A DNA stretch of 21,844 nucleotides, taken from IMG/VR virus record IMGVR_UViG_3300032562_000191, positions 1-21,844 of that record; one strand, written 5' to 3'. Positions within the stretch are counted from its first letter, which is position 1. Each line of letters starts with the position of its first letter. Position numbers and translations under genes: made by a program. This document shows positions 1,329 to 17,533 of this stretch, piece after piece. The notes below the pieces were generated by a model, which was not told the DNA's origin, did no database searches, and saw only the letters and a list, made by a program, of their open reading frames with translations. The DNA is from a virus.

Positions 1329-1336
1329 GCTAAATA
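1329..1336 (+). promoter_or_regulatory. T4-like late promoter candidate (GCTAAATA)
   Basis: The sequence TAAATACT here matches the core shared by the stronger late-promoter sites at 5506 and 17593. The first two bases depart from TATAAATA. It lies about 24 nt upstream of the ATG at 1360, so a transcript from it would have a very short leader. Confidence 0.4.
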
Positions 1337-1359
1337 CTTGCTAACACTGGATAAATCAT

Positions 1360-2847
1360 ATGTCATACGCGATATACTTAACTGACGGTACGCTATTTGC
1401 TACCATACCTGACGGCACTATCAATCAACAAAGTTCTGTAACCCTTATAGGGCAGAACTATATTGGATATGGAGTGCTACAAGATACTAATTTTATACAG
1501 ATGTTGGAAAATTTTTCCAGCACAACAGCGCCAACAAATCCTCTGACGGGACAGTTGTGGTTTAATTTGAACACCAAATTGCTGTCAGTGTATTCTGGAT
1601 CAGGCATTGGTTGGGTAAACGTTGGTGCTTATGGTAATGCCAATGTAGCCAGCTTTTTAAGTAATTTTGGATCTAACAACATATCCACTACAGGCACAGT
1701 CACTGTGGGCAATTTGTCTGCGGCAAATAATATTTTTGCTTCAGGTAATGCTTCCGTCGCAGGTAACATTTCTGTGTTGAATAATGCTTCTATCTCGGGT
1801 AATGCTTCCGTAACAAATAATGTTTCTGTAGCAAATAATGTTTCTGCGGTGGGTAATATTATAGGTAGTTATATTTTAGGTGATGGATACTACTTATCAA
1901 ACATTAATTCTGGTAATATTACAAATTCTTATGGTAATGCCAATGTAGCCGCTTACTTGCCAACATATTCAGGTAGTTTTACAGCCAGCACCGTAAGTGT
2001 TACAGGCAATATCACTGGCAGTTATATCTTGGGCAACGGCAGTCAGCTGACCGGATTACCAGCAACTTATAGCAATTCTAATGTGTCGGCTTATCTAGCT
2101 ACATTTTCGGGACCCATATCAGCAACTAACATAAGCGCCAGTGGAAATGTACTGGCAACTAATGTAAGTGCTTCGGGCAATATCATAGGAAACAGTTTAT
2201 TTGTATATGGATCAGGTAATATACTGGGCAACTTGAATGTTCAAGGAAATATTACATTTATTGACAGTAATGTTATTGTTACCAATGACTTATTCGTTGA
2301 TTTGGCTAATAATCAATCAACATTTGCCAACATTAATGGCTCGGGTTTACACGCAGGAAACACAGGTTCGGCAACTTTGACCAATTGGACCTACAGCGCA
2401 TCGGCCAATGCTTGGAGTACCAACGTTGGTGTCAGCGCAACTGGCACAGTTACCGGTGGCAATGTGGTAACTAGTGGATTGGTATCAGCTGGCGGTAATG
2501 TTACCGGTGGCAATGTGGTAACTAGTGGATTAGTATCAGCTGGCGGTAATGTTATTGGTAATTATTTAATAGGTAACGGAAGTCAAATAACTGGATTACC
2601 TGCTGGATATTCTAATGCCACTGCGGCTAGTTTTTTAGCTAATTTTGGATCAAACACAATTTCAACAAGTGGTGGTATCACTGGTGGTAATATCACTGGC
2701 GGTAACATTAATATGACTGGCGGATTTTCAATAAGACAATCGGGCAGTAAACTTTATTTTTATTATAACTCTACTGCTATTTTGTCACTGGATTCGGGTG
2801 GAAATCTTATAGCCTTGGCTAACATGACTGGATACGGAACACCGTAA
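1360..2847 (+). CDS. phage tail fibre / virion structural protein with Gly-Asn repeats, 495 aa
   Basis: The N-terminal 90 residues (YLTDGTLFATIPDGTINQQ ... NFSSTTAPTNPLTGQLWFN) match a conserved head region of fibre-like structural proteins of T4-like marine phages, probably the virion-attachment part. Residues about 100-290 are Asn/Gly/Ser-rich repeats (SGNASVxNNVS, GNGSQLTGLP). Residues 290-360 hold a discrete module (NVIVTNDLFVDLANNQS ... NWTYSASANAWSTNVG) that recurs in the giant fibre at 17623. Residues 364-397 are two copies of a 17-residue unit, SAGGNVTGGNVVTSGLV in register, encoded by an exact 51-bp tandem repeat with one mismatch. The C-terminal 40 residues are less repetitive. The start lacks a clear Shine-Dalgarno. 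The stop overlaps the next start (TAATG), indicating translational coupling. It is likely a late virion component for host contact; assignment to a particular fibre position is not possible. Confidence 0.87.
   Translation: MSYAIYLTDGTLFATIPDGTINQQSSVTLIGQNYIGYGVLQDTNFIQMLENFSSTTAPTNPLTGQLWFNLNTKLLSVYSGSGIGWVNVGAYGNANVASFLSNFGSNNISTTGTVTVGNLSAANNIFASGNASVAGNISVLNNASISGNASVTNNVSVANNVSAVGNIIGSYILGDGYYLSNINSGNITNSYGNANVAAYLPTYSGSFTASTVSVTGNITGSYILGNGSQLTGLPATYSNSNVSAYLATFSGPISATNISASGNVLATNVSASGNIIGNSLFVYGSGNILGNLNVQGNITFIDSNVIVTNDLFVDLANNQSTFANINGSGLHAGNTGSATLTNWTYSASANAWSTNVGVSATGTVTGGNVVTSGLVSAGGNVTGGNVVTSGLVSAGGNVIGNYLIGNGSQITGLPAGYSNATAASFLANFGSNTISTSGGITGGNITGGNINMTGGFSIRQSGSKLYFYYNSTAILSLDSGGNLIALANMTGYGTP
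2227..2447 (+). repeat. fibre module shared with 19687-19907
   Basis: This segment encodes GNLNVQGNITF ... NVIVTNDLFVDLANN ... LTNWTYSASANAWSTNVG. It aligns without any indel (constant offset of 17460 nt) to 19687-19907 in the giant fibre gene at 17623, whose product reads NVIVIGDLYIELANN ... LTNWTYSTMANAWSTNVG. It is a dispersed in-frame module, diverged mainly at synonymous and conservative positions. Confidence 0.85.
2449..2550 (+). repeat. 51-bp tandem duplication (17-aa unit)
   Basis: Two adjacent copies, 2449-2499 and 2500-2550, are identical except for one G/A difference (2481 versus 2532). The unit encodes the 17-residue Gly-Asn repeat also seen at 16103-16429. The repeat length is a multiple of three, so copy-number change keeps the frame. 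Confidence 0.92.
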
Positions 2848-4031: not shown

Positions 4032-4044
4032 AGGTTAAATTGTG
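4030..4044 (+). promoter_or_regulatory. ribosome-binding site fixing a GTG start
   Basis: AAAGG at 4030-4034 overlaps the stop codon of the upstream gene and lies 7 nt before GTG at 4042-4044. It supports GTG rather than a later codon as the start of the 88-residue protein. Confidence 0.65.
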
Positions 4045-4308
4045 GAAATTCAAAATTACTTAATTTTAGAAAACAACGTAGTAATAAATCTCGTAGTGTG
4101 GGACGGCAATACAGATACGTGGACACCTCCCGAAAACACCACTTGTTTGGTTCAAGCTACTACACCAGCTATGATTTGGCAATATAATAACCCAACATGG
4201 GTATTAACAGAAGTAATGGGCGCTGGTCAAATAGGATTTACTTGGGACGGTGTAATTTTAATGACCAATCAGACCAACCCTGCGCTTAACAGCAAAATCA
4301 AAAATTAA
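4042..4308 (+). CDS. small tail-associated protein, 88 aa
   Basis: The frame starts at GTG 4042 after an AAAGG site and ends at TAA 4306-4308. The sequence (YLILENNVVINLVVWDG, then WTPPENTTCLVQ, then GQIGFTWDG) follows the pattern of small proteins encoded directly downstream of fibre genes in many marine phages: a hydrophobic strand ending in WDG, a W-x-PP motif, and a late GxxWDG. These may be fibre caps or assembly factors, but the function is not established. Position as third gene of the 1360-4308 unit, 10 nt after the adhesin-like gene, supports a link to that fibre. There is no signal peptide and no membrane segment. Its stop overlaps the convergent glycosyltransferase stop by 4 nt. 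Confidence 0.75.
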   Translation: MEIQNYLILENNVVINLVVWDGNTDTWTPPENTTCLVQATTPAMIWQYNNPTWVLTEVMGAGQIGFTWDGVILMTNQTNPALNSKIKN

Positions 4309-5456
4309 ATCTTAAACAGTTGCAAATTATTTTCAATTTGCATCAACGGTTCGTCCCAAGCACCTATATCGGGCTGACGGAATATACGGCAGCTGGGATA
4401 CCAAGGGCTGTCATTACGTTTAAGTAACCAACGCCAATCTTGTCCAAACTGATTGAGTGGCAGCCAAAATGGTCTGGCTAATGCTCCGGTCAAATGGCCC
4501 ACAGCAGTATCTACAGCAATGACTAAGTCTAGATTCATTATAAGGCCTGCGGTGTCATTCCAATTGGATATAGTGCCAGGATACGCTTTGACTCCCTGTG
4601 CTATTAGTTGGCTTTCTTCTTCGGCAGTACAGTCAACTTGTAGATTGATCCATTCATATTGTGGATTGCGTTGTATCAACCCAAATATCTTTTCAAAAGG
4701 CACTGCTTTGTGCTGATTGATCCAGCTGTCTCTGCGCCCGCTCCAGCATACACCCACTCTAAGTTTAGTTTTCTTGCCCAAACGGTCTTGCCAAGCCAGT
4801 CTACAGTCTTTGCCTGGTGTAAGATACTGCAGTTTATGTGGCAGATTCTTATACGTCACTCCTAGAAATCCTGGAATACTCATGATAGGACTCCAGTAAT
4901 CAAATTTAGGCAAAGGATCGTTGTTGCCCAACACAGTAACTGCCGACATAAATGAATTTTCCAACAGGGGTTTGAGGTTATAATCCACACAGATGTATAC
5001 ATTTGCCCCCATGAAAACCAACTGTTCGGCAAATCTACAGAACTGTATGTTGTCACCGTGGCCTTGTTCCCCGGTTATCAGTATAGTTTTACCTTTTAGA
5101 TCCTGCCCCTCCCATCGAGGTTCACTAAATTGTGGCAGTTTACCATCTAAATGTTCAAATTTCCAACGTTTTTCGTACTGACGCCAGCCTCTGTCTAAAT
5201 CTCCTGCTAGTAAGTAAGCTACGGCTAGATTAAATTGCGCTACAGTGTCGTTGGGATTGAGGTCTATGGCATTTTGTAAAAATCCATAAGCTCTTTCGGG
5301 AAATCCCATTTCTCGAACCACGTTGCCGTAATTGTTATAAGCGGCACCCATGTCAGGGTTTTCTAAAAAAGCCTGAGCATAGCAGGCTAATGCTTGTTTT
5401 GGTTGGCTAATAGATCGATAGTGATTGCCATGTGCTATAAGTTCGTCGGGGGTCAT
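4305..5456 (-). CDS. TPR-containing GT-B glycosyltransferase (GT9/GT41-like), 383 aa
   Basis: Residues 1-100 form about three TPR helices pairs (QALACYAQAFLENPD; AYNNYGNVVREMGFPERAY; FNLAVAYLLAGDLDRGWRQY). The rest is a GT-B-fold transferase with hallmarks of TPR-linked family 9 enzymes. These are GKTILITGEQGHGDNIQF (about 122-139), the nucleotide-sugar-side motif VGVCWSG (234-240), DTAVGHLTGAL (316-326), and DWRWLL with DSPWYPSCRIFRQ (about 340-361). Relatives transfer sugars to lipopolysaccharide or proteins; donor and acceptor here are unknown. I chose ATG 5456; an in-frame TTG at 5462 would add two residues, and neither has a good Shine-Dalgarno. The gene stands alone on the minus strand between fibre genes, and its stop overlaps the convergent gene. 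The catalytic core looks intact, with no frameshift. Glycosylation of the neighbouring fibres or of host surface glycans are both possible. Confidence 0.9.
   Translation of the reverse strand: MTPDELIAHGNHYRSISQPKQALACYAQAFLENPDMGAAYNNYGNVVREMGFPERAYGFLQNAIDLNPNDTVAQFNLAVAYLLAGDLDRGWRQYEKRWKFEHLDGKLPQFSEPRWEGQDLKGKTILITGEQGHGDNIQFCRFAEQLVFMGANVYICVDYNLKPLLENSFMSAVTVLGNNDPLPKFDYWSPIMSIPGFLGVTYKNLPHKLQYLTPGKDCRLAWQDRLGKKTKLRVGVCWSGRRDSWINQHKAVPFEKIFGLIQRNPQYEWINLQVDCTAEEESQLIAQGVKAYPGTISNWNDTAGLIMNLDLVIAVDTAVGHLTGALARPFWLPLNQFGQDWRWLLKRNDSPWYPSCRIFRQPDIGAWDEPLMQIENNLQLFKI
4321..4342. terminator. weak bidirectional hairpin at the convergent gene ends
   Basis: A perfect 8-bp inverted repeat (TGCAAATT / AATTTGCA) with a 6-nt loop lies at the 3' end of the glycosyltransferase gene, just past the convergent stop codons. 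Neither side has a tight T-run, so it may only slow or stabilise transcripts. Confidence 0.3.
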
Positions 5457-5505
5457 AGTCAATATTTAATCTAAATTAAGCACCCCTGTAAAAAAACTGT
5501 TATTT

Positions 5506-5513
5506 TATAAATA
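5506..5513 (+). promoter_or_regulatory. T4-type late promoter (TATAAATA)
   Basis: Exact match to the T4 late promoter -10 consensus, which is read by a gp55-type phage sigma factor. It is followed by CTATTAA, a context shared with the site at 17593. It lies 92 nt before the ATG at 5605, in a 148-nt divergent gap with no other gene. Confidence 0.8.
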
Positions 5514-5527
5514 CTATTAACGTAATA

Positions 5528-5580
5528 ATGCGTTTTATGCTGAAAGGGTAACCCAACAGCGTAGCGGCTAAAACCCGCAT
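5528..5580 (+). promoter_or_regulatory. structured mRNA leader with nested stems and a 7-codon mini-ORF
   Basis: The leader can fold as nested stems. The outer stem ATGCGTTTTA (5528-5537) pairs with TAAAACCCGCAT (5569-5580) with a 2-nt CC bulge. GCTG (5539-5542) pairs with CAGC (5557-5560), and GGG (5546-5548) pairs with CCC (5552-5554) around TAA. The same bases contain ATG (5528) to TAA (5549-5551), a 7-codon reading frame (MRFMLKG) with no Shine-Dalgarno. The ribosome-binding site of the main gene (AAGGAG, 5592-5597) lies outside the structure and stays free. Confidence 0.5.
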
Positions 5581-5604
5581 AGGACTTCTTTAAGGAGAAA
5601 AAAA

Positions 5605-6555
5605 ATGGGGCGTCCACTTAAAATTAAAAAATCCACAACCAAGGATATTGGTTTCAATAGTTTCGCAAATTTAGACGTTGCGACTCAAGCCATTCCAGTT
5701 GGAATGACAACTTCAGAATTTTTAGGAGTAGTTGGCGGAAGTAACACCAATGTGGCTACTTCTTCATACCCTGTGGTGGCTATAACAGCTAATGTCAACG
5801 GTCAAAATGGCGCAGCACACATCATCACGCAAAAAGGCCAGATTAAATATTTGGTAGCCGGCGAAGATTCTGTTACTGCCGGTAGTTTTACTCCGGGCTT
5901 TTCGTATCAAATTCTCACTTTAGGTACTACAAATTGGACAGCAATTGGGGCTGGAGTAAATCCACAAGTTGGACAAGTATTCACAGCGACAGGGGTGGGT
6001 TCTGGTACTGGTACAGCCAGTGATGCTGGTCAGTGTATACTAACAGCCAATTCTTCTATATCTAGCGGACAGATGAATATGACGTTTAACGTCAACGGAA
6101 ACACAGTGTACGCTAGTAGATTGACTAACAAATACATATTTGATAGTTCAAATAATCGTTATGCTGTTAACTTCTTTGTAGCTGGTGAGTCAGTGGGAGT
6201 ACCTTTGGCTAACGTGGCTATTGCCGATACAGCGGGCAATATTACTTGCAACGTAGCCAATGTTACAGTTGGGCAGATTGTTACGGTTTCCGGATCATTT
6301 GCCAATGCTTCTGGCACAATCAGTGGCTATGCTAATCCTACTAATTATTATGTTCTTGCTACGAGTAACGGCAATGCTATTACTTTGGGTACTGGATATG
6401 GTTCTGCTAATATTGTAACTACGGCAGGCAATACCACTGGCGTTACCTTTACACTGGCTGCTTCAACTACAGCTAAATCAGGAGCTGACGCAGTTACTTG
6501 GTCTGGCAACAATGCTTACTTGACACTAGCACAAGTATCTAGCTACACATCATAA
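5605..6555 (+). CDS. virion structural protein with inserted GTTNWTAIGA module, 316 aa
   Basis: ATG at 5605 follows AAGGAG by 7 nt, the best ribosome-binding site in the window, behind a consensus late promoter; a strong terminator follows. This suggests a highly expressed, monocistronic late product. The N-terminus is basic (MGRPLKIKKS) and then turns to Asn/Thr/Gly-rich beta sequence. Residues about 92-138 (GSFTPGFSYQILTLGTTNWT, then IGAGVNPQVGQVFTATGVGS) form a compact repeat known as an inserted domain in many phage structural proteins. Here it interrupts the KGQIKYLVAGEDS ... AGQCILTAN strand pair. The C-terminal half (NVTVGQIVTVSGSFANASG) is probably beta-sandwich. T4-like marine phages carry similar proteins of unassigned virion position; a decoration or fibre-base role is possible but unproved. 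Confidence 0.85.
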   Translation: MGRPLKIKKSTTKDIGFNSFANLDVATQAIPVGMTTSEFLGVVGGSNTNVATSSYPVVAITANVNGQNGAAHIITQKGQIKYLVAGEDSVTAGSFTPGFSYQILTLGTTNWTAIGAGVNPQVGQVFTATGVGSGTGTASDAGQCILTANSSISSGQMNMTFNVNGNTVYASRLTNKYIFDSSNNRYAVNFFVAGESVGVPLANVAIADTAGNITCNVANVTVGQIVTVSGSFANASGTISGYANPTNYYVLATSNGNAITLGTGYGSANIVTTAGNTTGVTFTLAASTTAKSGADAVTWSGNNAYLTLAQVSSYTS

Positions 6556-6583
6556 TTCGACTACTATTAAAGTAGCTATTTAG

Positions 6584-6611
6584 ATCCCCGTCACAAGCGG
6601 GGATTTTTTTT
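6584..6611 (+). terminator. rho-independent terminator after the 316-aa gene
   Basis: ATCCCCG (6584-6590) pairs with CGGGGAT (6598-6604) around a 7-nt loop and is followed by eight T (6604-6611). It is preceded by a small hairpin CTACT/AGTAG (6561-6575). Confidence 0.9.
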
Positions 6612-6635
6612 ATGTTTCTAACAATCATAATCCAA

Positions 6636-6643
6636 CATAAATA
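6636..6643 (+). promoter_or_regulatory. T4-type late promoter (CATAAATA)
   Basis: Seven of eight bases match TATAAATA. It lies directly after the terminator at 6584-6611 and 19 nt before the ATG at 6663. The same octamer precedes the giant fibre gene at 12674. Confidence 0.7.
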
Positions 6644-6662
6644 GTAAAAAGGATTCTTTCTG

Positions 6663-8357
6663 ATGGCTTCTGTTAAAAACGTAAACACTGATTATACACT
6701 TAACGTGGGTACACCCTACGGAAATGGCATATTTACTATAAATGCCCAAACGGTGTTTAACGGAAATGTAGTCTATACAGTGCCTTCAACAACTTCTAGC
6801 CCTTTTCTTACTGTGGCGGCTAACAACACTGGTACTTTACAAGACATGGGCATATTAGCTCAAACCAGTTCTAACACATTTTCTGGATTGAGATTTGATG
6901 TAGCATCTAACACTTGGCAAGTAAGCTCAAGTGTATATTCTAACGGTGCGCCTATAACTAATTATTTGTCAATTACAACTGGACCAGGCGGAAACAACAC
7001 ACAACTTCAATTTAATAATCATGGTAATTTCGCAGGTAGCAACAATCTTACATTTAACAGTTCGGCTAATTTGTTAGCTTTGCTGGGTAACGCCAGTATA
7101 GCAGGAAATGTAGTGGCAACAAATTTTGTGGGAAATTTTGCGGGAAATATAACCGGACCTATACCAGCCAGTGCTAACATACTTTATGTGGCTAAAAATG
7201 GCAATGACAGCAACGACGGATCGTTGAATTCACCTTATCTCACCATCAAAGCTGCCTTGGCTGCGGCTTATAATATCAAAGGTAATACAGGAGGTATAGC
7301 CATACACGTGGCACCGGGACTTTATCAAGAAGTATGTCCCATGACCATTACTCCAAACATATCATTGATGGGCGACAACTTGCGTAGTGTACAGATTGAA
7401 CCAACTGACCCTGCCCAAGATATATTTTACATGACCGGGGGAACTTACGTCTGGGGCATTACAGTACAAAATTATAAATCCAATGCGTTTAGTTATAATC
7501 CTGATGGCAGCACTTGTAACGTTTATGGTAGTATATATGTTTCGCCATATATCCAAAACATAACCAGTTATACCAGCTATCCAAGCGGCCCAGGTGGTAC
7601 TTGTGTTGTGATTGACGGCAGTTTAGTTGATGACTACAGTACCAAGGCTATGATTTTAGGATTCATGACAATTATCAATCAAAACGGTATTGGGTTGTCT
7701 ATTATCAATGCTGGGTACAGTCAAGCAGTTAACATTTATACTATATTTTGTCATATTGGTGTACAAGTAAATTCAGGCGGATTTGTCACGCTCAATGCCT
7801 GTGATACCAGTGTGGGAAATTATGGATTAATTGCTGATGGTGTGGGCAACGTACAAACTGCGGGCTATACGGTTGGCAGTAGCACCAGCGGCACTTTCCG
7901 CGTTTCGTCGTTGACAAACGGGCAACCTGATGTCAATACAGTTATGACAATTCCTGGAAATCCCAATTACTATAGTATAGATACTATTATTCCAGTTGAT
8001 GCCAGTACTTTTGATGTTGTAGTACAACAGATATATACAGGAACATTGGAAGATTCTACTCCTGTGACATTTTATAATCGCAGTGCTATTATTGCCAGTG
8101 CTCATACATTTGAATACGTGGGAGCAGGAACAACTTATTTGGCACTGCCGCAATACGGCGGAATTCCTATAGAAGCCAATGAAGTGATACAGACTAATGG
8201 TGGTGTGGTAACATTTACCAGTACTGATCAAAAGGGTAACTTTAAAGTTGGAAGTGGTTTTACTATTAACCAAGCTACGGGAACTATTACAGGAAATGAT
8301 TTTTATCAAAGCTTATTTGCTCAAATGACACCATATATTTTAGCACTAACAAATTAA
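6663..8357 (+). CDS. virion structural protein with pectate-lyase-like beta-helix, 564 aa
   Basis: ATG at 6663 has AAGGA 9 nt upstream. Residues 1-110 are an N-terminal structural domain (FRFDV-like segment FSGLRFDVASNTWQV). Residues 110-170 carry Gly-Asn fibre repeats (NNTQLQFNNHGNFAGSNNLT, GNVVATNFVGNF). From residue 175 the motif YVAKNGNDSNDGS ... LTIKAALAAA opens a right-handed parallel beta-helix of the DUF1565/pectate-lyase superfamily, continuing through GLSIINAGYSQAVNIYTIFC and GGFVTLNACDTSVGNYGL. The C-terminus (KGNFKVGSGFTINQATGTIT ... SLFAQMTPYILAL) is a conserved ending of structural proteins in T4-like cyanophages. Catalytic residues for polysaccharide cleavage cannot be picked out, so binding versus depolymerase activity is open. 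First gene of the 6663-12610 unit. Confidence 0.9.
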   Translation: MASVKNVNTDYTLNVGTPYGNGIFTINAQTVFNGNVVYTVPSTTSSPFLTVAANNTGTLQDMGILAQTSSNTFSGLRFDVASNTWQVSSSVYSNGAPITNYLSITTGPGGNNTQLQFNNHGNFAGSNNLTFNSSANLLALLGNASIAGNVVATNFVGNFAGNITGPIPASANILYVAKNGNDSNDGSLNSPYLTIKAALAAAYNIKGNTGGIAIHVAPGLYQEVCPMTITPNISLMGDNLRSVQIEPTDPAQDIFYMTGGTYVWGITVQNYKSNAFSYNPDGSTCNVYGSIYVSPYIQNITSYTSYPSGPGGTCVVIDGSLVDDYSTKAMILGFMTIINQNGIGLSIINAGYSQAVNIYTIFCHIGVQVNSGGFVTLNACDTSVGNYGLIADGVGNVQTAGYTVGSSTSGTFRVSSLTNGQPDVNTVMTIPGNPNYYSIDTIIPVDASTFDVVVQQIYTGTLEDSTPVTFYNRSAIIASAHTFEYVGAGTTYLALPQYGGIPIEANEVIQTNGGVVTFTSTDQKGNFKVGSGFTINQATGTITGNDFYQSLFAQMTPYILALTN

Positions 8358-8711: not shown

Positions 8712-11285
8712 ATGACAGTTAATTCAACACAACTTCTCAGCGGTCGTTCAAAAGTAGTTGATTACGGCAATCTTACAGCCGACAGATATCAATTTTTGGC
8801 ATTAGGACAAGCTGAACCCAATCTAGGTCCGGGCGATGCTAATAGTGTATTGACACTTGCCGCCGACAATACTAGAGTGTGGGCCAATAGCCTGGCACTT
8901 ACAACATTAACAACTAGTGGAAATATATCGGCAAGTGGAAATATATCAGCCAATTACTTTTTTGGCAATGGCAGTCAGTTGACTGGCATAACTAATGCCA
9001 ATGTCAATTTAATATTTAATGGTACTAGCTACGCAAATATTCCTGTAGCCAACGGTAATTTAGTTATAAACACTTCTGGACCGCAGTGGATATTTGAAAC
9101 TAATGGTAATTTGTCATTTCCCAACAATGCGGCCATTTACAACAGTGCCAACGCACTGGCTCTAGTATCAAATAATGGTAACTACACGTGGCTATTTGAT
9201 AATAACGGAAATTTGTCTTCGCAAGGCAACGTATATGCAAATATTTACTACGGTAACGGAAGTCAACTTACAGGTGTAATAGCCAGTTCTGCCAATGCCA
9301 ACTCTCTAACTGGTAATACACTAAGCAGCAATATTACTAATTCTAATTTGACCACCGTTGGCAGTTTGGCTAACCTAACAGTCGCTGGCAATATCACTGC
9401 TACTGGTGATGTCACTGCTACTGGTAATATTTCTGGTAACTATTTTATAGGAAATGGCAGCGGCCTAACCGGAGTAACTGGAAATATAACATTCGATAAT
9501 GTTACAGTCAGTACTAGTATACTAAATGCCAATATTATCTTGGCCCCATCGGGCAATGGCGTAGTTACTATAGCCAACACTGCTGGAGGAGCTACTGGAA
9601 TACAATTGGGATCTAATACCGCAGGTCAGTTAGTCAGCAACGCTCTTACACTTATGACCAATACTTCAGTGACCAATAGCATAGCAGAATTAAATGCAGT
9701 ATTGGGCAGACTAGTGCCACCAGCACCGCCTAATTTTCCGGGAGGCGCAACTCTCAGTATTACCTCATCAGTCACTGGGGCTAGAATGTGTTCGGGTTTT
9801 ACTCAGCCAGACAATACCACTACAGGAAATAAGGCAGTTGCTGCCGGCACGGTGGTATCGGCTGTTAGATCCAGTGCGTATTCTACTAACACTATATCAA
9901 ATACAGGACCGGGAGATTTGGGTACTATAGCAGTATATCTAAATTCAAACACAGCAGGCAATGTCACTCTCAATACCAATGCCAATCCCAGCGGAAATGG
10001 CACACATGGCAATCTTGTAATAACCAATAATGAAGATTATCATGTGGCAAACAGCAGTGTAACTCCTGGTTTTTGGTATGTTTTTTCAGCACAAGCTTCG
10101 GGTTTGGTGCCTAGCGGATGGAACGAAGTTTATATAACAGACTCGGCAGCAATGGCAACAAACACACCTGTGTGGTATTATGACAGCAGTACAGCAACAG
10201 CTCCTGTGTTTAGTCAAACCAGTTTTACCGCTTGTGCTAGTCCGTCAATTACATATTCTAGTACTATTCCTCACTATAATTCCGGAACTAATTTTGTTGC
10301 TCAATTTAGCGTTAATAATCTCAGCGGAAATATGTATCCAAACAATGGAAATTTATTAACCAACACAACTACAGCTGGTGGAGCGTTTCAAGCTCCTGTG
10401 ACGGTCAGTTATAGCAGTGCCAATGTAACAGTACCGTTGCCGCAAAATTTATACGTGGCATCTGGAGTGGCAAATGCTGTCACAACTGCTACTGTAATTT
10501 CGGGTTTTGGCAGTAATGGCACAGGACCACAAGTATCGGTAACTAACAGTTACAATTCTACTTCCTATACATTTACACCAACTGGAACAGTTCTTTATAA
10601 AACTGGAACTAGTACTGCTGTAGACGAAAGCAATATAGTAGTAGCCAGTGCTATAGGATCAGGTTCGGGAAATGCTTTTAGAATTGTCAATCCAGGTACA
10701 GGAAATACTCCTGTGTTTACTGGCACAGAGGCCGCATTTAATAGCCAAACTGGGCCGTTTTATACATATGATGCCACTGTAGTGGGACAGGGTAGCCAAG
10801 GAGTACTGTTATTCAACAAAACTAATTATAGCAATGGATCTTATCTGCCAATTGGTCCAAATTTAGGCGCACAGGATAATGTGCAATATTTTACTTTTAA
10901 ATTTGTACGTTCTGCTACTAGCAAATTTGACCTACAGTTAACAGGAACAGTGGGCGGTGTATGGGTAGCACTGCCTGGCAGTGTATTTGATACCAATATA
11001 AGTGGAGTTGGCCCAACATCTGATATCAACGGCTGGCTAAACATGAGTTTGCCTTATAATGGATCAGGGAGACCTGGGGCAATTACAGCAAATGGTGGTA
11101 ACGGATCAGACGGTTGCGCCGTAGGCGGAATAATTCCGTTAAATACAGCCATAAGCGGCAGATATACTTGTACATTTGGAACAGTAAGTAGTTCTTCTAC
11201 TAGTTCAAACGAGATATATGTTAGAATCAGACTTACTAGCGGGCAGAGTGTTACCGCTTTACAATTACAAACAGCGAGTAACTAA
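8712..11285 (+). CDS. tail fibre protein with N-terminal AEPNLG module, 857 aa
   Basis: Residues 1-60 (RYQFLALGQAEPNLGPGDAN ... TRVWANS) are a recognisable N-terminal module of marine phage fibres, probably for attachment. Residues 60-320 are Gly-Asn repeats with three clear GNGSxLTG units, plus a module SYANIPVANGNLVINTSGPQ related to the duplicated module of the 1619-aa fibre. Near residue 330 the sequence LNAVLGRLVPPAPPNFPGG begins a long non-repetitive C-terminal half. That half holds beta-rich domains (GPGDLGTIAVYLN; LVITNNEDYHVANSSVTPGF; WYYDSS) known from cyanophage structural proteins and likely forming the distal receptor-contacting part. It contains four cysteines. The start is 4 nt after the previous stop with no obvious Shine-Dalgarno, suggesting coupling. 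The stop shares one base with the next start (TAATG). Confidence 0.9.
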   Translation: MTVNSTQLLSGRSKVVDYGNLTADRYQFLALGQAEPNLGPGDANSVLTLAADNTRVWANSLALTTLTTSGNISASGNISANYFFGNGSQLTGITNANVNLIFNGTSYANIPVANGNLVINTSGPQWIFETNGNLSFPNNAAIYNSANALALVSNNGNYTWLFDNNGNLSSQGNVYANIYYGNGSQLTGVIASSANANSLTGNTLSSNITNSNLTTVGSLANLTVAGNITATGDVTATGNISGNYFIGNGSGLTGVTGNITFDNVTVSTSILNANIILAPSGNGVVTIANTAGGATGIQLGSNTAGQLVSNALTLMTNTSVTNSIAELNAVLGRLVPPAPPNFPGGATLSITSSVTGARMCSGFTQPDNTTTGNKAVAAGTVVSAVRSSAYSTNTISNTGPGDLGTIAVYLNSNTAGNVTLNTNANPSGNGTHGNLVITNNEDYHVANSSVTPGFWYVFSAQASGLVPSGWNEVYITDSAAMATNTPVWYYDSSTATAPVFSQTSFTACASPSITYSSTIPHYNSGTNFVAQFSVNNLSGNMYPNNGNLLTNTTTAGGAFQAPVTVSYSSANVTVPLPQNLYVASGVANAVTTATVISGFGSNGTGPQVSVTNSYNSTSYTFTPTGTVLYKTGTSTAVDESNIVVASAIGSGSGNAFRIVNPGTGNTPVFTGTEAAFNSQTGPFYTYDATVVGQGSQGVLLFNKTNYSNGSYLPIGPNLGAQDNVQYFTFKFVRSATSKFDLQLTGTVGGVWVALPGSVFDTNISGVGPTSDINGWLNMSLPYNGSGRPGAITANGGNGSDGCAVGGIIPLNTAISGRYTCTFGTVSSSSTSSNEIYVRIRLTSGQSVTALQLQTASN

Positions 11286-12610
11286 TGACCATAGCACAAG
11301 CACAATACGTTGACCTATTAGTTAAAAAACTCTACGGAGTGGCTACCACCGATACTGCGGTCAACAAAAGTCCCAGTAACGAATCCATACCAAGTCCCGA
11401 ATTAAATCGCGGAGATACAGTATGGACCCAGGCTAATCAGATACCTGTTACAGCGGCTAATATAGCAAATTTGGTATTTCAATACGGAAATAGCAATCCC
11501 ATACAGTGTACCCCTGATACTACTACTGTGCCTATACCCAATTATCTAGGACAGAACATATATCCCACTTGGTTGACTAATGTGCCTGAATGGATACCTC
11601 AAGAATTTGGGGCCAGTTATACTGTTACGGCTTATGTTGGACCTGCTAACATAGCCAATTTAACCACAGGCAACGTGACTTTTATATCTAGTAACGGTGA
11701 AGGCGGCACTTTTCCAGGAGAATATTACTTTGATTATCAAGCTGGTCTTTTGAATTTTATAGGCAACACCATTCCCAACTTATTAACCACGGGAAATGTA
11801 GTTTATATAACTGGCTACAAATACACAGGGTTGACAGGAGTAACAAATCTCCCCGACAATACAAATATTGGCAATATTATAATAGCCAACACCACAATAT
11901 CATCTAACTCTGCTAATGTAGTGGCGTTTGGCGGCAACGCAGGAGTTGGTATTCCTGCGGGAAATACAGCCCAACAGCCGGTAAATCCTGCAATTGGAAC
12001 TACTAGATTCAATACTATTTTAAATGCTTTAGAAACATGGAGTGGCAGTTCTTGGGTATCAGGTGGAGGCAGCGGAAATTCAACTCCTGGTACTATTACC
12101 GATCAACAGATAAGCCCAGATGGTACTAGCAACAGTTATTCTCTTACACAGTCGTCAACAAGTTCGGGAGTATTGGTATCAATCAACGGAATAAGTCAGC
12201 TTCCCAACATATCTTATTCAGTGTCGGGCAATACCATAACATTTAATCAAACACCCACCACGCAAGATATTATAGATATAAGATTTATCACATATTTTAA
12301 CTCAGTGTCAACACTAAGTAGTCCTACTGGCAATAGTTCTGTAACTATAACAAACTCGGGAAATATAAATTTTTCCACTTCAAACGTTACCGCCGCAATA
12401 TTAAACACCGCAGGAACGCTGGACATTAGCCAAGGACAAAGTATTAAACTGCCCAGTTATACGGTGTCTCAAACTGCCAATATTTCTGGCCCAACAGCAG
12501 GTCAAGTGATTTATGTGTCAAATGGCAACGCAGGAAACCCCAGTTTAGCAGTCTATGATGGCGCGTCTTGGAAGCGTGTAACCTTAGGTGCAACTATCTC
12601 GGCCACATGA
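11285..12610 (+). CDS. fibre-associated structural protein with C-terminal PVGNTAQRP-type domain pair, 441 aa
   Basis: The ATG shares its A with the previous TAA, so translation is coupled. Residues 1-80 (AQAQYVDLLVKKLYGVATTD ... IPSPELNRGDTVW) are unlike the repeats and have more charge. They may be the docking part. Residues 80-200 are beta-rich (YPTWLTNVPEWIPQEFGASY). Residues about 221-258 (VGIPAGNTAQQPVNPAIGTT, then ETWSGSSWV) and 296-337 (VLVSINGISQLPNISYSVSG, then DIRFIT) form a domain pair that recurs in the same order at the C-terminus of the 1619-aa fibre. The protein ends LAVYDGASWKRVTLGA. It could be a short fibre or a connector. It is the last gene of the 6663-12610 unit; no terminator is evident in the 63-nt gap that follows. 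Confidence 0.87.
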   Translation: MTIAQAQYVDLLVKKLYGVATTDTAVNKSPSNESIPSPELNRGDTVWTQANQIPVTAANIANLVFQYGNSNPIQCTPDTTTVPIPNYLGQNIYPTWLTNVPEWIPQEFGASYTVTAYVGPANIANLTTGNVTFISSNGEGGTFPGEYYFDYQAGLLNFIGNTIPNLLTTGNVVYITGYKYTGLTGVTNLPDNTNIGNIIIANTTISSNSANVVAFGGNAGVGIPAGNTAQQPVNPAIGTTRFNTILNALETWSGSSWVSGGGSGNSTPGTITDQQISPDGTSNSYSLTQSSTSSGVLVSINGISQLPNISYSVSGNTITFNQTPTTQDIIDIRFITYFNSVSTLSSPTGNSSVTITNSGNINFSTSNVTAAILNTAGTLDISQGQSIKLPSYTVSQTANISGPTAGQVIYVSNGNAGNPSLAVYDGASWKRVTLGATISAT

Positions 12611-12662: not shown

Positions 12663-12676
12663 AGGAGACTAACGTG
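12663..12676 (+). promoter_or_regulatory. ribosome-binding site fixing a GTG start
   Basis: AGGAG at 12663-12667 stands 6 nt before GTG 12674-12676. The encoded N-terminus AGNLTRINNNQITDA begins at this codon and matches the conserved start of related fibres, so GTG is the likely initiator. Confidence 0.8.
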
Positions 12677-15600
12677 GCGGGAAACTTAACCAGAATTAAT
12701 AATAATCAAATCACTGATGCGATCAGTGGTAACTCGTATGTTGGTATCAATGCCAACACGAAAGTTCAATCATATTCGATAACATCGACATTATTGGCAA
12801 ACAATCTTACTTACGGATCTGATCTTACGATTTCGGGTAATTTAAGTGTAACAGGAAATGTTACAGCGATTGACAGCACTTATGTAACCGTTGAAGATCC
12901 ATTGATCGTACTGGCGTCTAATAATTCTGGAAACAGCGTAGATATCGGCTACATAGGTATACGTGCTGGATCCAACGTAGCCATGGTGTGGCGTGAAAGC
13001 GAGCAGGCTTTTGTCACAGCATTTACAACGAGTGGTATTGGTGATACCACTACAATAGCTCTTACTGGTTATGCAGACTTACACACAGCCAATGCTAATA
13101 TTGGCAATTTATTAACAGCATCTTCAAATGTCACAGTGGTCGGAAACGTGTTGGGTAATCTCAATGTTACTGGATATTTAAACAGTGGAAACGTAACCAC
13201 TGGTGGATTTGCATCCGCCGCAGGCAATGTCTACGGTAATAATGTTTTTAGTTTAACTGATTTAAGTGCCGCGGGCAATTTATACGCAAACGCCATACCT
13301 AATCCTATCACAACTAACGATTTATCTGTAACTGGTCAGGTATTTGTTGATTGGTTGTACGGCAACGGTGCTCCTCAGCCAGGAGCAGGTATTGTGGCCA
13401 GTACAGCTAACATTTACGATATTGGTGAAGCTTCGTCGGCATTTGCCAACGCTTATTTTAACGGCAATGTTTATGCGGGAAATATTGTAACCGGCGGACC
13501 AAGCGGTAACATTAGCGGAGCTAACGTAATTTCAGCAACAACTATAACCGCAACTGGTAACGTTGGAGCAGGTCAATTCTTATTTGGTGACGGATACTAT
13601 ATTTCAAACATCAATGCTGGCAACGTAAGTTCAACCAAAATATTTAATGGCGGAAGCTATGCCAACATCGCGTCATCAGATGGAAATTTAGTAATAGCTA
13701 TAGGCGCTAGTTCCAACATTGTAGCAACTTATTACGATCAGGGTGTAAACTTCAGTACAGATGTCAGTGCTACAGGAAATATTTTTGCTTATTTAGACGT
13801 CAGTGCTGGTGGAAATGTTAATGGTAATAATGTAAGTGCTATTGGTTCGGTATCGGCTGCTAATATTGTTGATTCAGCACTGGGCATGGGTCAGGTAGTG
13901 TATGCTGGCGCAAGCGGCTTGTTATCTGGTAATAGTGGTTTAATTTATGACGGAAGTAATTTAACAGCTACAGGCACTGTGTCTGTAGGTAATCTTACAT
14001 CGACTGGTAATGTTTACGCCGCTTATTTGGTAACTCCAAACACAGTGGTTAACGGCGGAGTAAGTTCAAGCGGAAATATTATAGCGGCTAATTTTGCCAC
14101 ATCGGGTTCTGGTGGTAATATTACCGGAGCCAATGTAATAGCAGCAACTACATTGACTGCAACGGGAAATGTGTATGGTCAGTACTTGGTAACTCCAAAC
14201 ACAGTGATTAACGGCGGTGTTAGCACTAGCGGAAGTATTACTGCTGGTGGAAATATATTAGGAAATTATCTAGCATCTACGGTAGATATCAGCGCAGGCG
14301 GAAACCTCTACGCAGGCAATATTTTAGCCATATCATCTGGAGCGATTAGCACAGGCGGAAACGTAACTGGCGGCAATGTGTTTTACGGTACAGGTGTACT
14401 GTCTGGAACAGGCAATGCCAATGTTGGTAATTTATTAACTGGTGGACTGATAAGTGCTTACGGTGATATATTAACTAGTGGCAATTTAAGTGCTACAGGT
14501 AATACCATAGGTAATGTAGTTATAGCACAATATGATATTACTGCAGGCGGAAATATCACAGCTGGACCAACTGGCAATGTTTCAGGTGCCAATGTGGTTA
14601 CTCCTAACTTGATATCAAACGGTCAGTTGGCATTTATTGCCAATGCGTCTGGAATACAATTTAGTACTACAGGTAATGTCAATATGGGTAATACATTTAT
14701 TACCAATTTGGCTGGACCTCCGGTAAATGCTCAAGATGCTGTTAATAAAGCATACGTTGATGGTGTGGCCAATGGACTACAGGTTAAGGCATCAAGTAAT
14801 GTGGCAACAACTGGAAACATTTTAGCCACAACTGGCAAGAGCTATACATATAACAACGGTACTGATGGGGTTGGAGCTACTATAACATTTTCTACTCCAG
14901 GTGTTATAACCATAGATGGTGTGACACTAACATCAGGCATGCGTGTTCTTATTAAAGATGAACCACTAGTAGCACCAGTACCAGGAGGTGGCACACCTTC
15001 CGCAGCCTATAACGGTATCTATACAGTTACAACAGCAGGTTCTATCAGTGCAGCTTTGATTTTAACACGTAGTACAGATGATGACACTCCAGCATTAATG
15101 TACTCTGCTTATACATTTATTATAGCAGGTGGTAGTGTAAATGGATTAACAGGATGGGCCAGCACAAATACCCCAACTAGTTCAGGCGATCCAATTGTGG
15201 TTGGTACAACGCTTTACTACTGGTCACAGTTTTCTCAAGCAGGATCATATAGTGCTGGAAATGGTTTAAGCTTAACTGGCACACAGTTTAATGCTTTAAC
15301 TGACGGGTTATCAACATATATCAACAGTAATAATCAAATTGCTGTATATGGAAACATAACTTTATCCACACCAAGCTTGGGCAACGCGGCATTTGACAGC
15401 TTGTCATTGACAGGCAATGGTACAGGAGCTATCACAGCCAACAATATCAACGGTGTACAAATAAGTGGCAGTGGCAATATCTTAACTAGCATGAATTTAA
15501 GTGCCGCAGGTAACGTAAGTGGTGATTATGCTTATTTTAGTAGCGTAGGAAATACTTCAGTTCCGTTTGGTAATACAGATGGATCTCTAGGAACAGATGC

Positions 15601-17533
15601 CAACTTGACTTATACATATAATACTGGTGTATTGACCAGCCATATTTTCTCTGCTGACGGAAATGTAATTGGCGGCAATATATTAACTACTGGTATTGTA
15701 AGTGCGTCTGGTGACGTATACTCGGCTAATGTGTGGGCTAATGGTTTGATCAGTGCGTCTGGTGATGTATACGGAGCTAATTTCTGGCCAACAGGCAATA
15801 TAGTACCAACACAAGACAGCATATACAGTTTGGGTAATTCAACTAGTGCTTGGTTAAGTTTGTATGTAAGCGGAAGTACAATATTCTTGGGAAATATACA
15901 GCTCAAACAAAGCGCGGCAAATACGTTAACGGTAACAGCATCCGATGGTACAACCAACGCTGGTATAGTAGTATCCAATGTCAGTGCTAGTGGCAATATC
16001 AGCACTATGGGTAATGTCATAGCTGGAAATTTACGTACTACTGGAGAAGTAACAGCGCAAGGTAATGTAACGGGCGGTAACATATTCACTGGTAACATTG
16101 TAAGTGCTGGTGGTAACGTAATTGGTGGTAATGTAACCACAGTGGGATATGCTAGTGCAGCTGGTAATGTTTACGGCAATAACGTATTGTCAAACGTATT
16201 AGTCAGTGCTGGTGGTAACGTAATTGGTGGTAATGTAACCACAGTGGGATATGCTAGTGCAGCTGGTAATGTGTATGGCAATAACTTATTGTCAAACGTA
16301 TTAGTCAGTGCTGGTGGTAACGTAATTGGTGGAAACATATTAACTGGCAATATTGTAAGTGCTGGTGGTAATATTACTGGTGGAAACATATTAACTGGCA
16401 ATATTGTAAGTGCTGGTGGTAATGTTTATGCTAATGGGTTTATAACAGCTAATACATCTATTAACGGTGGCGTAGTTACAACAGGCGTAGTAAGTGCCTT
16501 GGGTAACATACAAACTGGCAATTACTTTATCGGTGATGGTTACTATATCAGTAATATCAATCCTGGCAATGTAAGTTCAAACAAAATATCTAGCGGCGGA
16601 AGCTATGCTAACATTGCCACAGGTGATGGAAATTTAGTAATAGCAATAGGAGCTGGTTCTGACATCGTAGCAACTTATTACGATCAGGGTGTAAACTTCA
16701 GTACAGACGTTAGTGCTACGGGAAATATTTTTGCTTATTTAGACGTTAGTGCTGGCGGAAATGTTACAGGCGGAAACATATTGACTAACGGCATTGTAAG
16801 TGCCATGGGAGATATTAATACCAGCGGTAATATAAGTGCCGCAGGCAATCTAGCAGTAGGCAATACTCTGTTTGTGGATGTTGCCACAAACACAGCAAGT
16901 TTTGGTAGCAACGTACAAACAACTGGTGCTGTGGTAGCGTTTAACGCCACTAATTCAATCTTGATACCGGTTGGTAACACAGCGCAACGTCCAGGAACAC
17001 CTTCTACTGGTATGTTACGTTATAACAGTACTATATCACAAACAGAAGTCTGGAATGGTGCGGCTTGGGTAGCAGTAGGTGGATCTAGCTATACTGTAAT
17101 TGCTAATGAACAGTTTAACGGTGACGGGACAACTACAACATTCACATTAAGCTCAACACAAACTACAGATAGCTGTATTGTAACTATCAATGGTATTGTA
17201 CAGATTCCAACTACAGCGTATAGCGTAAGCGGAACTACATTGACATTTACAGAAGCTCCAATGACGGGTGATACTATAGATGTTCGTGAAATAACTACAA
17301 CTACCACAGTTACAGCTATTTCAAATAGTTCAGGAAATGCTATAGTTTCTGTATCCGAAACAGTGGGCGAAGTTGACATTACTGGTAATTTGGTAGCACA
17401 GCTTAACTCCGCGGCACCAACATTGGGAGTAAATAGCACTATGTCATTCCAACTAGTAAGTGATACAAGTTTGAAAGTGTTAGTGCGTGGAACTGATGGA
17501 ACTACAAGAAGCGTAACGTTGACCCTAGCATAA
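12674..17533 (+). CDS. giant tail fibre protein, 1619 aa
   Basis: The N-terminus (NLTRINNNQITDA) followed by a module with VTVEDPLIVLASNNSGNS (about 60-120) matches the head of large fibres in marine T4-like phages. Residues about 130-670 and 900-1420 are Gly-Asn solenoid-like repeats, SAxGNVxGGNIxTxGxV in 17-residue units, with very few charged residues. Between them (about 680-885) sits a non-repeat domain: DAVNKAYVDGVANGLQVKAS, then ITIDGVTLTSGMRVLIKD, NGIYTVTT and TSSGDPIVVGTTLYYW. The C-terminal 190 residues carry IPVGNTAQRPGTPSTGMLRY and IVTINGIVQIPTTAYSVSG, shared with the upstream 441-aa protein, and end in VRGTDGTTRSVTLTLA. A 78-codon block is present twice (13586 and 16532). It probably forms a long trimeric fibre; trimerisation is inferred. 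It has its own late promoter, GTG start and terminator. Confidence 0.92.
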   Translation: MAGNLTRINNNQITDAISGNSYVGINANTKVQSYSITSTLLANNLTYGSDLTISGNLSVTGNVTAIDSTYVTVEDPLIVLASNNSGNSVDIGYIGIRAGSNVAMVWRESEQAFVTAFTTSGIGDTTTIALTGYADLHTANANIGNLLTASSNVTVVGNVLGNLNVTGYLNSGNVTTGGFASAAGNVYGNNVFSLTDLSAAGNLYANAIPNPITTNDLSVTGQVFVDWLYGNGAPQPGAGIVASTANIYDIGEASSAFANAYFNGNVYAGNIVTGGPSGNISGANVISATTITATGNVGAGQFLFGDGYYISNINAGNVSSTKIFNGGSYANIASSDGNLVIAIGASSNIVATYYDQGVNFSTDVSATGNIFAYLDVSAGGNVNGNNVSAIGSVSAANIVDSALGMGQVVYAGASGLLSGNSGLIYDGSNLTATGTVSVGNLTSTGNVYAAYLVTPNTVVNGGVSSSGNIIAANFATSGSGGNITGANVIAATTLTATGNVYGQYLVTPNTVINGGVSTSGSITAGGNILGNYLASTVDISAGGNLYAGNILAISSGAISTGGNVTGGNVFYGTGVLSGTGNANVGNLLTGGLISAYGDILTSGNLSATGNTIGNVVIAQYDITAGGNITAGPTGNVSGANVVTPNLISNGQLAFIANASGIQFSTTGNVNMGNTFITNLAGPPVNAQDAVNKAYVDGVANGLQVKASSNVATTGNILATTGKSYTYNNGTDGVGATITFSTPGVITIDGVTLTSGMRVLIKDEPLVAPVPGGGTPSAAYNGIYTVTTAGSISAALILTRSTDDDTPALMYSAYTFIIAGGSVNGLTGWASTNTPTSSGDPIVVGTTLYYWSQFSQAGSYSAGNGLSLTGTQFNALTDGLSTYINSNNQIAVYGNITLSTPSLGNAAFDSLSLTGNGTGAITANNINGVQISGSGNILTSMNLSAAGNVSGDYAYFSSVGNTSVPFGNTDGSLGTDANLTYTYNTGVLTSHIFSADGNVIGGNILTTGIVSASGDVYSANVWANGLISASGDVYGANFWPTGNIVPTQDSIYSLGNSTSAWLSLYVSGSTIFLGNIQLKQSAANTLTVTASDGTTNAGIVVSNVSASGNISTMGNVIAGNLRTTGEVTAQGNVTGGNIFTGNIVSAGGNVIGGNVTTVGYASAAGNVYGNNVLSNVLVSAGGNVIGGNVTTVGYASAAGNVYGNNLLSNVLVSAGGNVIGGNILTGNIVSAGGNITGGNILTGNIVSAGGNVYANGFITANTSINGGVVTTGVVSALGNIQTGNYFIGDGYYISNINPGNVSSNKISSGGSYANIATGDGNLVIAIGAGSDIVATYYDQGVNFSTDVSATGNIFAYLDVSAGGNVTGGNILTNGIVSAMGDINTSGNISAAGNLAVGNTLFVDVATNTASFGSNVQTTGAVVAFNATNSILIPVGNTAQRPGTPSTGMLRYNSTISQTEVWNGAAWVAVGGSSYTVIANEQFNGDGTTTTFTLSSTQTTDSCIVTINGIVQIPTTAYSVSGTTLTFTEAPMTGDTIDVREITTTTTVTAISNSSGNAIVSVSETVGEVDITGNLVAQLNSAAPTLGVNSTMSFQLVSDTSLKVLVRGTDGTTRSVTLTLA
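13586..13819 (+). repeat. intragenic 234-bp duplication, copy 1 (copy 2 at 16532-16765)
   Basis: Encodes GDGYYISNINAGNVSS ... SYANIASSDGNLVIAIG ... YYDQGVNFSTDVSATGNIFA. The copy at 16532-16765 aligns with a constant offset of 2946 nt and no indels, including 41 identical bases at 13721-13761/16667-16707. Confidence 0.92.
16103..16332 (+). repeat. 102-bp tandem repeat, two full copies and a partial third
   Basis: Copies at 16103-16204 and 16205-16306 differ at three positions; the third copy begins at 16307 and keeps identity to about 16332. Each copy encodes 34 residues, that is, two of the 17-residue Gly-Asn units (SAGGNVIGGNVTTVGYA and SAAGNVYGNNVLSNVLV). Confidence 0.93.
16328..16429 (+). 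repeat. 51-bp tandem repeat (17-aa unit)
   Basis: Copies at 16328-16378 and 16379-16429 begin with GGTGGAAACATATTAACTGG and are identical over most of their length. They continue directly from the 102-bp repeat, giving an unbroken 17-residue register. Confidence 0.9.
16532..16765 (+). repeat. intragenic 234-bp duplication, copy 2 (copy 1 at 13586-13819)
   Basis: Second copy of the block encoding GDGYYISNINPGNVSS ... SYANIATGDGNLVIAIG ... YYDQGVNFSTDVSATGNIFA, in frame and without indels relative to copy 1. Confidence 0.92.

Follow-up and report, generated by a model that had tools for sequence, protein, structure and literature searches.

A TPR-bearing GT9-type glycosyltransferase beside the head genes of T4-like phages, a candidate for modifying a virion protein

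What does a phage glycosyltransferase modify when its gene lies among the genes of the virus particle? The question is raised by a viral DNA stretch of 21,844 nucleotides (nt) (IMG/VR record IMGVR_UViG_3300032562_000191, positions 1 to 21,844; the whole stretch is called the window), in which one gene encodes an enzyme with tetratricopeptide repeats (TPR) ahead of a GT-B glycosyltransferase core. A preliminary description of the window had likened the enzyme to the O-GlcNAc transferase OGT and to HMW1C-type N-glucosyltransferases and had proposed that the phage glycosylates its own fibres, which are dense in N-X-S/T sequons. We find TPR helices joined to a GT9-type GT-B domain with conserved putative motifs, an enzyme conserved across many contigs of T4-like phages, and a fixed place for the gene between head genes on one side and, on the other, the fibre genes and a divergent partner whose product we call the MGRPLKI protein. 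We consider it somewhat better than an even chance that this is a late, TPR-docked O-glycosyltransferase that would act on a virion protein before assembly, with predicted donor, acceptor, and activity.

The minus strand across the gene is a single open reading frame (ORF) of 383 amino acids (aa) plus stop, over a region in which the plus strand carries 17 stops. The three TPR repeats matched by Pfam fall in residues 8-89. The AlphaFold2 model, based on 20 members of the family (mean pLDDT 88.4, pTM 0.88), has six helices at residues 3-101 followed by an alpha/beta core that can be aligned with GT-B enzymes, which confirms the TPR plus GT-B architecture read from the sequence before. Aligned with VIA-align, the helices superpose on the TPRs of an OGT chain (5bnw_A) with Z 18.4 over 104 residues at 1.7 A, and the order of the two parts, with repeats N-terminal to the GT-B core, is a trait of GT41 enzymes.

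The catalytic core itself, to judge from its sequence matches, is of GT9 type (the heptosyltransferase superfamily, TibC included) and not of the GT41 type; it is the Pfam matches that decide between the two. Glyco_transf_9 matches all 20 members scanned, picked from the 81 described below, at E values up to 1 (best 3.2e-9), as well as 10 of 10 long related records, 8 of them above the gathering cut-off, whereas Glyco_transf_41 matches 0 of the 20 members at E values up to 1 and 0 of 11 records, with control matches in Caulobacter and Synechococcus. A profile of the core finds WaaC as its best match among PDB sequences (E 0.024), aligned at the VDTGLSHLTAALDRP segment. Among structures, VIA-align favours GT9 for the core, with Z 19.5 for 3tov, 18.1 for WaaF (1psw), and 17.2 for WaaC (2h1f), over 236-250 residues at 3.2-3.6 A, and 17.1 for TibC over 243 residues at 2.9 A; Foldseek is divided, its TM score being 0.49 for WaaF vs. 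up to 0.32 for GT41 chains and its E values favouring the latter. The proposed kinship to OGT and HMW1C is not supported. Both putative active-site motifs are invariant within the family, D316, T317, and H321 in 20 of 20 aligned members, and both inner glycines and the aspartate of GEQGHGD are kept in 27 of 27 cores of an alignment that includes bacterial and distant phage homologues; by analogy with GT9 enzymes, D135 of this motif is a candidate catalytic base.

Pattern matching returned 258 viral stretches, 255 of which encode relatives of the enzyme, and the best 80 of these 255 were kept, giving with the window 81 distinct loci (82 entries if L001, which duplicates the window, is counted as well). 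The kept relatives are 53-78% identical to the window enzyme and mostly full length, and one, L015, is a 100% identical partial copy covering residues 162-383. The nonsynonymous distance dN between the window enzyme and L002, L003, and L008 is 0.15-0.20, with a synonymous distance dS that was not computable, which we take as saturation; dN/dS is 0.18 for the pair L058/L042, and the gene looks to be under constraint. Among 50,697 phage records, the enzyme matches 6, two of which are the same phage. Besides a match in marine virus AG-345-E08, these include four distant phage homologues whose surroundings were inspected. Two lie inside tail-fibre clusters (cyanophages BUCT-ZZ01 and S-SRM01) and one near a capsid gene (podovirus ctDrO704, in which the homologue comes third after the gene of the major capsid protein and has an FkbM methyltransferase and a galT-like gene nearby); the match in the fourth, ct7QV12, is annotated 'tibC'. 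In S-SRM01, a sulfotransferase and a beta-1,4-glycosyltransferase lie near the homologue and a 2-oxoglutarate (2OG) oxygenase adjoins it. The literature matches listed include no paper on a phage TPR-GT9 enzyme.

The gene also keeps its place. The MGRPLKI gene is its head-to-head neighbour in 78 of 81 loci, the exceptions being two in which the enzyme lies at the contig edge (L015 and L079) and one with other genes there (L011). On the enzyme's other side and on the opposite strand lies the T4 major capsid gene gp23 (Pfam Gp23, 5.8e-97) in 66 of 81 loci, within 3 kb in 61 of them, followed where the locus reaches further by gp21 (Peptidase_S77), gp20 (Portal_T4), and a gp22-like gene. gp23 lies beyond 3 kb in 5 loci, 4 of which keep the MGRPLKI neighbour; in the window, fibre genes and not gp23 follow the enzyme, and in L015 gp23 is 9.0 kb off. 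The gene sits in a structural region, with head genes on one side and MGRPLKI/fibre genes on the other. Searching in the other direction, the MGRPLKI alignment retrieved 367 relatives. Once the best 80 had been selected and 13 with less than 1.5 kb upstream set aside, the enzyme occupies the same slot in 56 of the 67 MGRPLKI loci that remain (50 of 61 when 6 contigs that also belong to the first set are left out). Co-occurrence as proposed does exist, with the MGRPLKI gene and the T4 head genes as the recurring partners, but fibre genes follow in related loci both with and without the enzyme.

Evolutionary distances in 31 loci without near-copies correlate between the enzyme and gp23 (r 0.91), gp22 (0.91), and MGRPLKI (0.73), and in a second set of 26 loci between the enzyme and a gene labelled comp4 (0.86; partial 0.56 given gp23). 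We take these correlations as common descent, because gp22 correlates as strongly as anything. As a separate observation, comp4 (L036:1570-2154; ~195 aa) stands after the MGRPLKI gene in 58 loci and has a weak likeness to alpha-2,3-sialyltransferase (phrog_4603, E 0.014); it was not seen in the window, and by eye 9 of the 11 loci that lack the TPR enzyme have it too.

The word TAAATA stands 10-12 nt upstream of the enzyme ATG in 77 of 79 loci, with a Shine-Dalgarno-like word in 2 of 79, and gp20 is similar (14/15 and 1/15, respectively). Near the ATG of other genes, TAAATA is found in 0/29 loci for gp22, 0/17 for gp21, 0/56 for comp4, and 0/77 for MGRPLKI, and in 7/27 at 17 nt for gp23; Shine-Dalgarno-like words are also few before gp21 (5/17). 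T4 late promoters read TATAAATA, and because the TAAATA near the ATG resembles them, the enzyme transcript would be late and possibly leaderless. TAAATA combined with an almost complete lack of Shine-Dalgarno words at both the enzyme and gp20 hints that phages of this group may make leaderless late mRNAs.

The MGRPLKI gene has a late-promoter-like element of its own: 47 of 79 intergenic regions, with L001 counted, contain ATAAATA on its strand, and in 75 of 77 the core TAAATA lies no further than 200 nt off. The leader that follows matches the freshwater-2 RNA, found ahead of MGRPLKI in 6 of 6 records of one scan and in 12 of 13 of another (L062 and all 11 loci that lack the enzyme have it, L012 does not), which ties a structured RNA to one phage gene; no paper among the literature matches listed names this RNA. 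The protein itself has no match in the 50,697 phage records (two queries) and no significant Pfam or PHROG family, and its model is of low confidence (pLDDT 70.8), with an uncharacterised protein as the best viral fold match.

Are the sequons of the neighbouring fibres a sign of what the enzyme modifies? Summed over six fibres of the window, 198 sequons are observed against 147 expected from composition and 171 from dipeptide-preserving shuffles. The richness noticed at first is above composition in three of the six and at expectation in the other three (Table 1), with no excess in six other scored ORFs (for instance, z is 0.2 in a Gly-rich one at 2847-4028 and -0.1 in the MGRPLKI ORF); across loci, the MGRPLKI protein has 583 sequons vs. 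592.8 expected. In the window fibres, Ser or Thr follows Asn in 31% of cases at +2, but also in 31% at +8 and 28% at -4 (background 23%), a pattern unchanged when only unique contexts are counted, with +14 at background; we read these peaks as the repeat register of the fibres. Importantly, among ORFs of at least 400 aa and at least 7% Asn that follow the MGRPLKI gene in the same orientation, the excess over composition is 1.38-fold with the enzyme (168 ORFs, 104 of 141 loci) vs. 1.39-fold without it (9 ORFs, 6 of 11 loci; Mann-Whitney p = 0.51), 6 contigs with the enzyme being present in both locus sets. Judged by the criterion of the preliminary description itself, the argument from sequons falls, with the reservation that the control is small and made up of fragment records. 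Sequons were accordingly rejected as a substrate signal, given the same excess in a small control without the enzyme and a +2 spacing that is not special; they are probably not the target signal of the enzyme, and the motif seems to be a side effect of the repeats in the fibres.

Table 1. Positions of the enzyme, its parts, and neighbouring features in the window
Feature	Position	Strand	Basis
TPR-glycosyltransferase, 383-aa TPR + GT9-type glycosyltransferase, stop included	4305..5456	-	ORF, Pfam, AlphaFold2 model, structure alignment
TPR part, residues 1-101	5154..5456	-	Pfam TPR matches, model helices 3-101, OGT chain alignment
GT-B core, residues 117-383	4308..5108	-	3tov_B (GT9) Z 19.5, 250 residues, 3.2 A
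GEQGHGD motif, residues 129-135, candidate catalytic-base loop	5052..5072	-	alignment of 20 members, 20/20 invariant
DTAVGH, residues 316-321, GT9 nucleotide-sugar site motif (putative)	4494..4511	-	profile alignment with WaaC VDTGLSHLTAALDRP segment
TAAATA, late-promoter-like, T 12 nt before enzyme ATG	5463..5468	-	77/79 loci
TATAAATA, late-promoter-like, of MGRPLKI gene, ~90-100 nt upstream	5506..5513	+	intergenic motif counts
freshwater-2 RNA (RF02980), MGRPLKI leader between TATAAATA and ATG	5518..5607	+	64.9 bits vs. gathering 49.9 (covariance model)
MGRPLKI protein, 316 aa, divergent partner, function unknown, model beta-rich	5605..6555	+	ORF, neighbourhood, model
Asn/Ser/Thr/Gly-rich fibre-like protein	1360..2847	+	sequon z 3.0 composition, 1.3 dipeptide shuffles
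Tail fibre protein, phrog_17885 (E 7e-54), sequons at expectation	6663..8357	+	z -0.5 composition, -0.5 dipeptide
Fibre-like protein, phrog_8578 (function unknown)	8712..11285	+	z 2.6 composition, 2.0 dipeptide
Fibre-like protein, sequons at expectation	11285..12610	+	z 0.4 composition, 0.4 dipeptide
Large repeat fibre-like protein, 1619 aa, sequons at expectation	12674..17533	+	z 0.4 composition, -1.2 dipeptide
Large repeat fibre-like protein, open at window end, top sequon excess	17623..21843	+	z 5.5 composition, 3.8 dipeptide

On the reading that we prefer, a cytoplasmic phage glycosyltransferase would be made late in infection, its TPR part would dock a phage structural protein, and a sugar would be moved from a nucleotide donor (ADP-heptose or another nucleoside diphosphate sugar) to Ser/Thr side chains of an acceptor glycosylated before the particle is assembled. 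Among candidate acceptors we rank the adjacent fibre proteins first, then the MGRPLKI protein, then gp23. We arrive at a virion protein because of the domain build, the fixed place, the promoter-like element, and the precedents of TibC and FlmG, and a protein rather than a lipopolysaccharide (LPS) acceptor, as first proposed, is plausible. More tentatively, a widespread branch of T4-like phages may carry a dedicated virion-glycosylation pair in which a late, leaderless TPR-GT9 enzyme recognises and O-glycosylates, in the cytoplasm, the MGRPLKI protein (its divergent neighbour, under freshwater-2 control), the beta-repeat fibres, or both, as a TPR-docked counterpart of TibC/AIDA-I. Virion glycans are already known in phages, and the new part would be the type of enzyme and the phage group. 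If this is true, at least ~250 viral contigs encode an enzyme that decorates the particle, and sugars on capsid or fibres could alter adsorption, host range, or the ability to escape decoys; with a TPR dock this small and a neighbour this constant, the substrate lends itself to direct testing.

Several observations weigh against this reading. As to the family of the core, the window enzyme alone scores 17.5 bits against a Glyco_transf_9 gathering score of 22, Foldseek ordered by E value starts with GT41 chains (SPY at 1.3e-9, OGT), and in VIA-align some GT41 chains, at Z 17.2, equal WaaC and TibC, although they do so only when the alignment covers both domains, at 15-16 A. In the alignment of 27 cores, the four distant phage homologues have Cys or Ser in place of the donor-site Asp and may therefore differ in enzyme kind, and the one in ct7QV12 lies ~3.5 kb from a terminase gene, not near fibres or capsid. 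As to the partners, 11 of the 67 MGRPLKI loci lack the enzyme, which is found nowhere in those 11 fragment records (5 to 133 kb; the largest 133, 104, and 88 kb), so the enzyme is not essential to the MGRPLKI protein, and the enzyme-MGRPLKI correlation is weak once gp23 and gp22 are given (partial r 0.25, permutation p 0.001; 0.19 in the second set). The nearest bacterial relatives, finally, lie mostly among genes that by eye are housekeeping genes. In the 11 loci without the enzyme, the slot is filled by other genes; in three of them (L103 3767-4402, L104 3883-5906, and L133 4834-5901), the unrelated genes in or near it include a Methyltransf_24 methyltransferase and proteins without a Pfam match.

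Of the alternatives, the one that survives best is that the GT9 core adds sugars to LPS or another surface glycan of the host, altering the receptor and excluding superinfecting phages, in a slot that is merely convenient. The known GT9 enzymes WaaC and WaaF act on LPS, WaaC is the best PDB sequence match of the core, and the S-SRM01 homologue has the sulfotransferase and beta-1,4-glycosyltransferase near it; passages of one paper interpret cyanophage glycan clusters as modifying capsular polysaccharide (PMC7824862). However, WaaC and WaaF match residues ~123-383 only and offer no counterpart of the TPR part, and the location by head genes together with the gp20-like promoter element suggests expression that would be late for exclusion; we hold this account to be rather unlikely. 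We regard as improbable that a degenerate or moonlighting TPR-glycosyltransferase serves as an assembly chaperone for a fibre or the MGRPLKI protein without transferring sugar. TPRs are common chaperone docks, the pairing with one late gene is tight, and the donor-site Asp is lost in the distant phage homologues; within the family, however, the active-site motifs (GEQGHGD, D316, T317, and H321) do not vary in any of the 20 members. A GT41-type enzyme, transferring O-GlcNAc as OGT does or N-linked glucose to fibre N-X-S/T sites as HMW1C does, would account for the architecture, the Foldseek E-value order, and the sequon excess in three of six fibres, but is highly improbable given the missing Glyco_transf_41 matches in the 20 members and 11 records scanned and a sequon excess independent both of the enzyme (in the small control) and of the +2 spacing. 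Least probable of all is a DNA-modifying glycosyltransferase placed among late genes by chance, since, although parts of the literature report phage glycosyltransferases that glucosylate phage DNA (PMC12619734), the enzyme joins a TPR dock to a GT9 core and no DNA-modification family is among the window's Pfam/PHROG matches.

Bacterial relatives were tried as a guide to the substrate and rejected, their neighbours being mostly housekeeping genes and flagellin or YadA-anchor genes being distant. Four enzyme relatives were found in 26 matched bacterial stretches, all in Paraburkholderia and each beside a gene that by eye is chorismate synthase. The genomes of two loci (L082 and L083) contain 11 and 12 homologues, the 23 matches covering 262-273 of 276 profile positions, and in these genomes no flagellin or YadA-anchor gene is close to a homologue, the nearest among the matches listed being 39 kb away. 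At 19 further bacterial places, the neighbours are by eye mostly housekeeping or metabolic genes (L180 has no qualifying ORF; L179 continues L170). In Paraburkholderia solisilvae (L170 8129-15056 / L179 293-12952), three tandem TPR-GT9 genes stand directly before the gene of a 4220-aa secreted-looking protein, and in L175 an autotransporter lies ~3 kb from the homologue. L175 also has, at 1332-6734, an ESPR autotransporter and after it a TPR protein that ends in a sulfotransferase domain (C-terminal), a pair suggesting TPR-docked modification of a surface protein. Across 150 genomes of the phylum, the glycosyltransferase core is present in 50 at E values up to 1e-25, and these have a median of 8.5 matches to flagellin (G151 counted as 0 flagellin), and the association between core and flagellin is probably confounded by clade; the nearest core-flagellin pair is ~15 kb apart among the matches listed.

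At the start of the window, on the minus strand, a 2OG-Fe(II) oxygenase (PF13640) and a protein labelled ferrochelatase (phrog_2954) lie side by side at 1-642 and 635-1201. By eye, the phrog_2954-labelled protein has an HxD...H pattern that we take to be oxygenase-like.

How does the enzyme compare with known systems? TibC, which has the GT9 fold, heptosylates Ser of a beta-helical adhesin and has an iron finger made of Cys-339, 342, 358, and 370, according to passages of its structural description (PMC4358343). The phage enzyme shares the GT-B core fold with TibC and AAH (the BAHT family) but has TPR helices, six in the model of residues 1-101, in place of the N-terminal beta-barrel; it is without the four-cysteine iron finger, Cys occurring in at least half of the 20 aligned members at two columns only, residues 25 (19/20) and 276 (10/20), and it is phage-borne, with no autotransporter partner in the window. 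WaaC and WaaF resemble it in fold (Z 17.2 and 18.1) and in the DTxxxH donor-site segment, and differ in having no TPR and a glycolipid acceptor. OGT, SPINDLY, and HMW1C (GT41) likewise place TPRs before a GT-B core, but the family of the core differs by Pfam. Bacterial TPR-GT9 proteins of Paraburkholderia and others have the same kind of core; the one scanned, of 751 aa, has more TPR sequence than the phage enzyme. Glycans on capsid and tail tube proteins are described for mycobacteriophage virions in parts of one report (PMC12619734); these phages are unrelated to the T4-like carriers of the enzyme, and the likeness drawn here concerns the virion glycans. A likeness in overall design comes from FlmG of Caulobacter, which, as excerpts of its study describe it (PMC7591256), is a cytoplasmic enzyme with an N-terminal TPR part and a compact C-terminal GT-B domain of ~290 residues that modifies a filament protein, and whose TPR part alone binds the flagellin substrates. 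In the same excerpts the TPR part of FlmG is longer, spanning residues 1-313, and the sugar added is pseudaminic acid; we liken FlmG to the phage enzyme by architecture, not by sequence.

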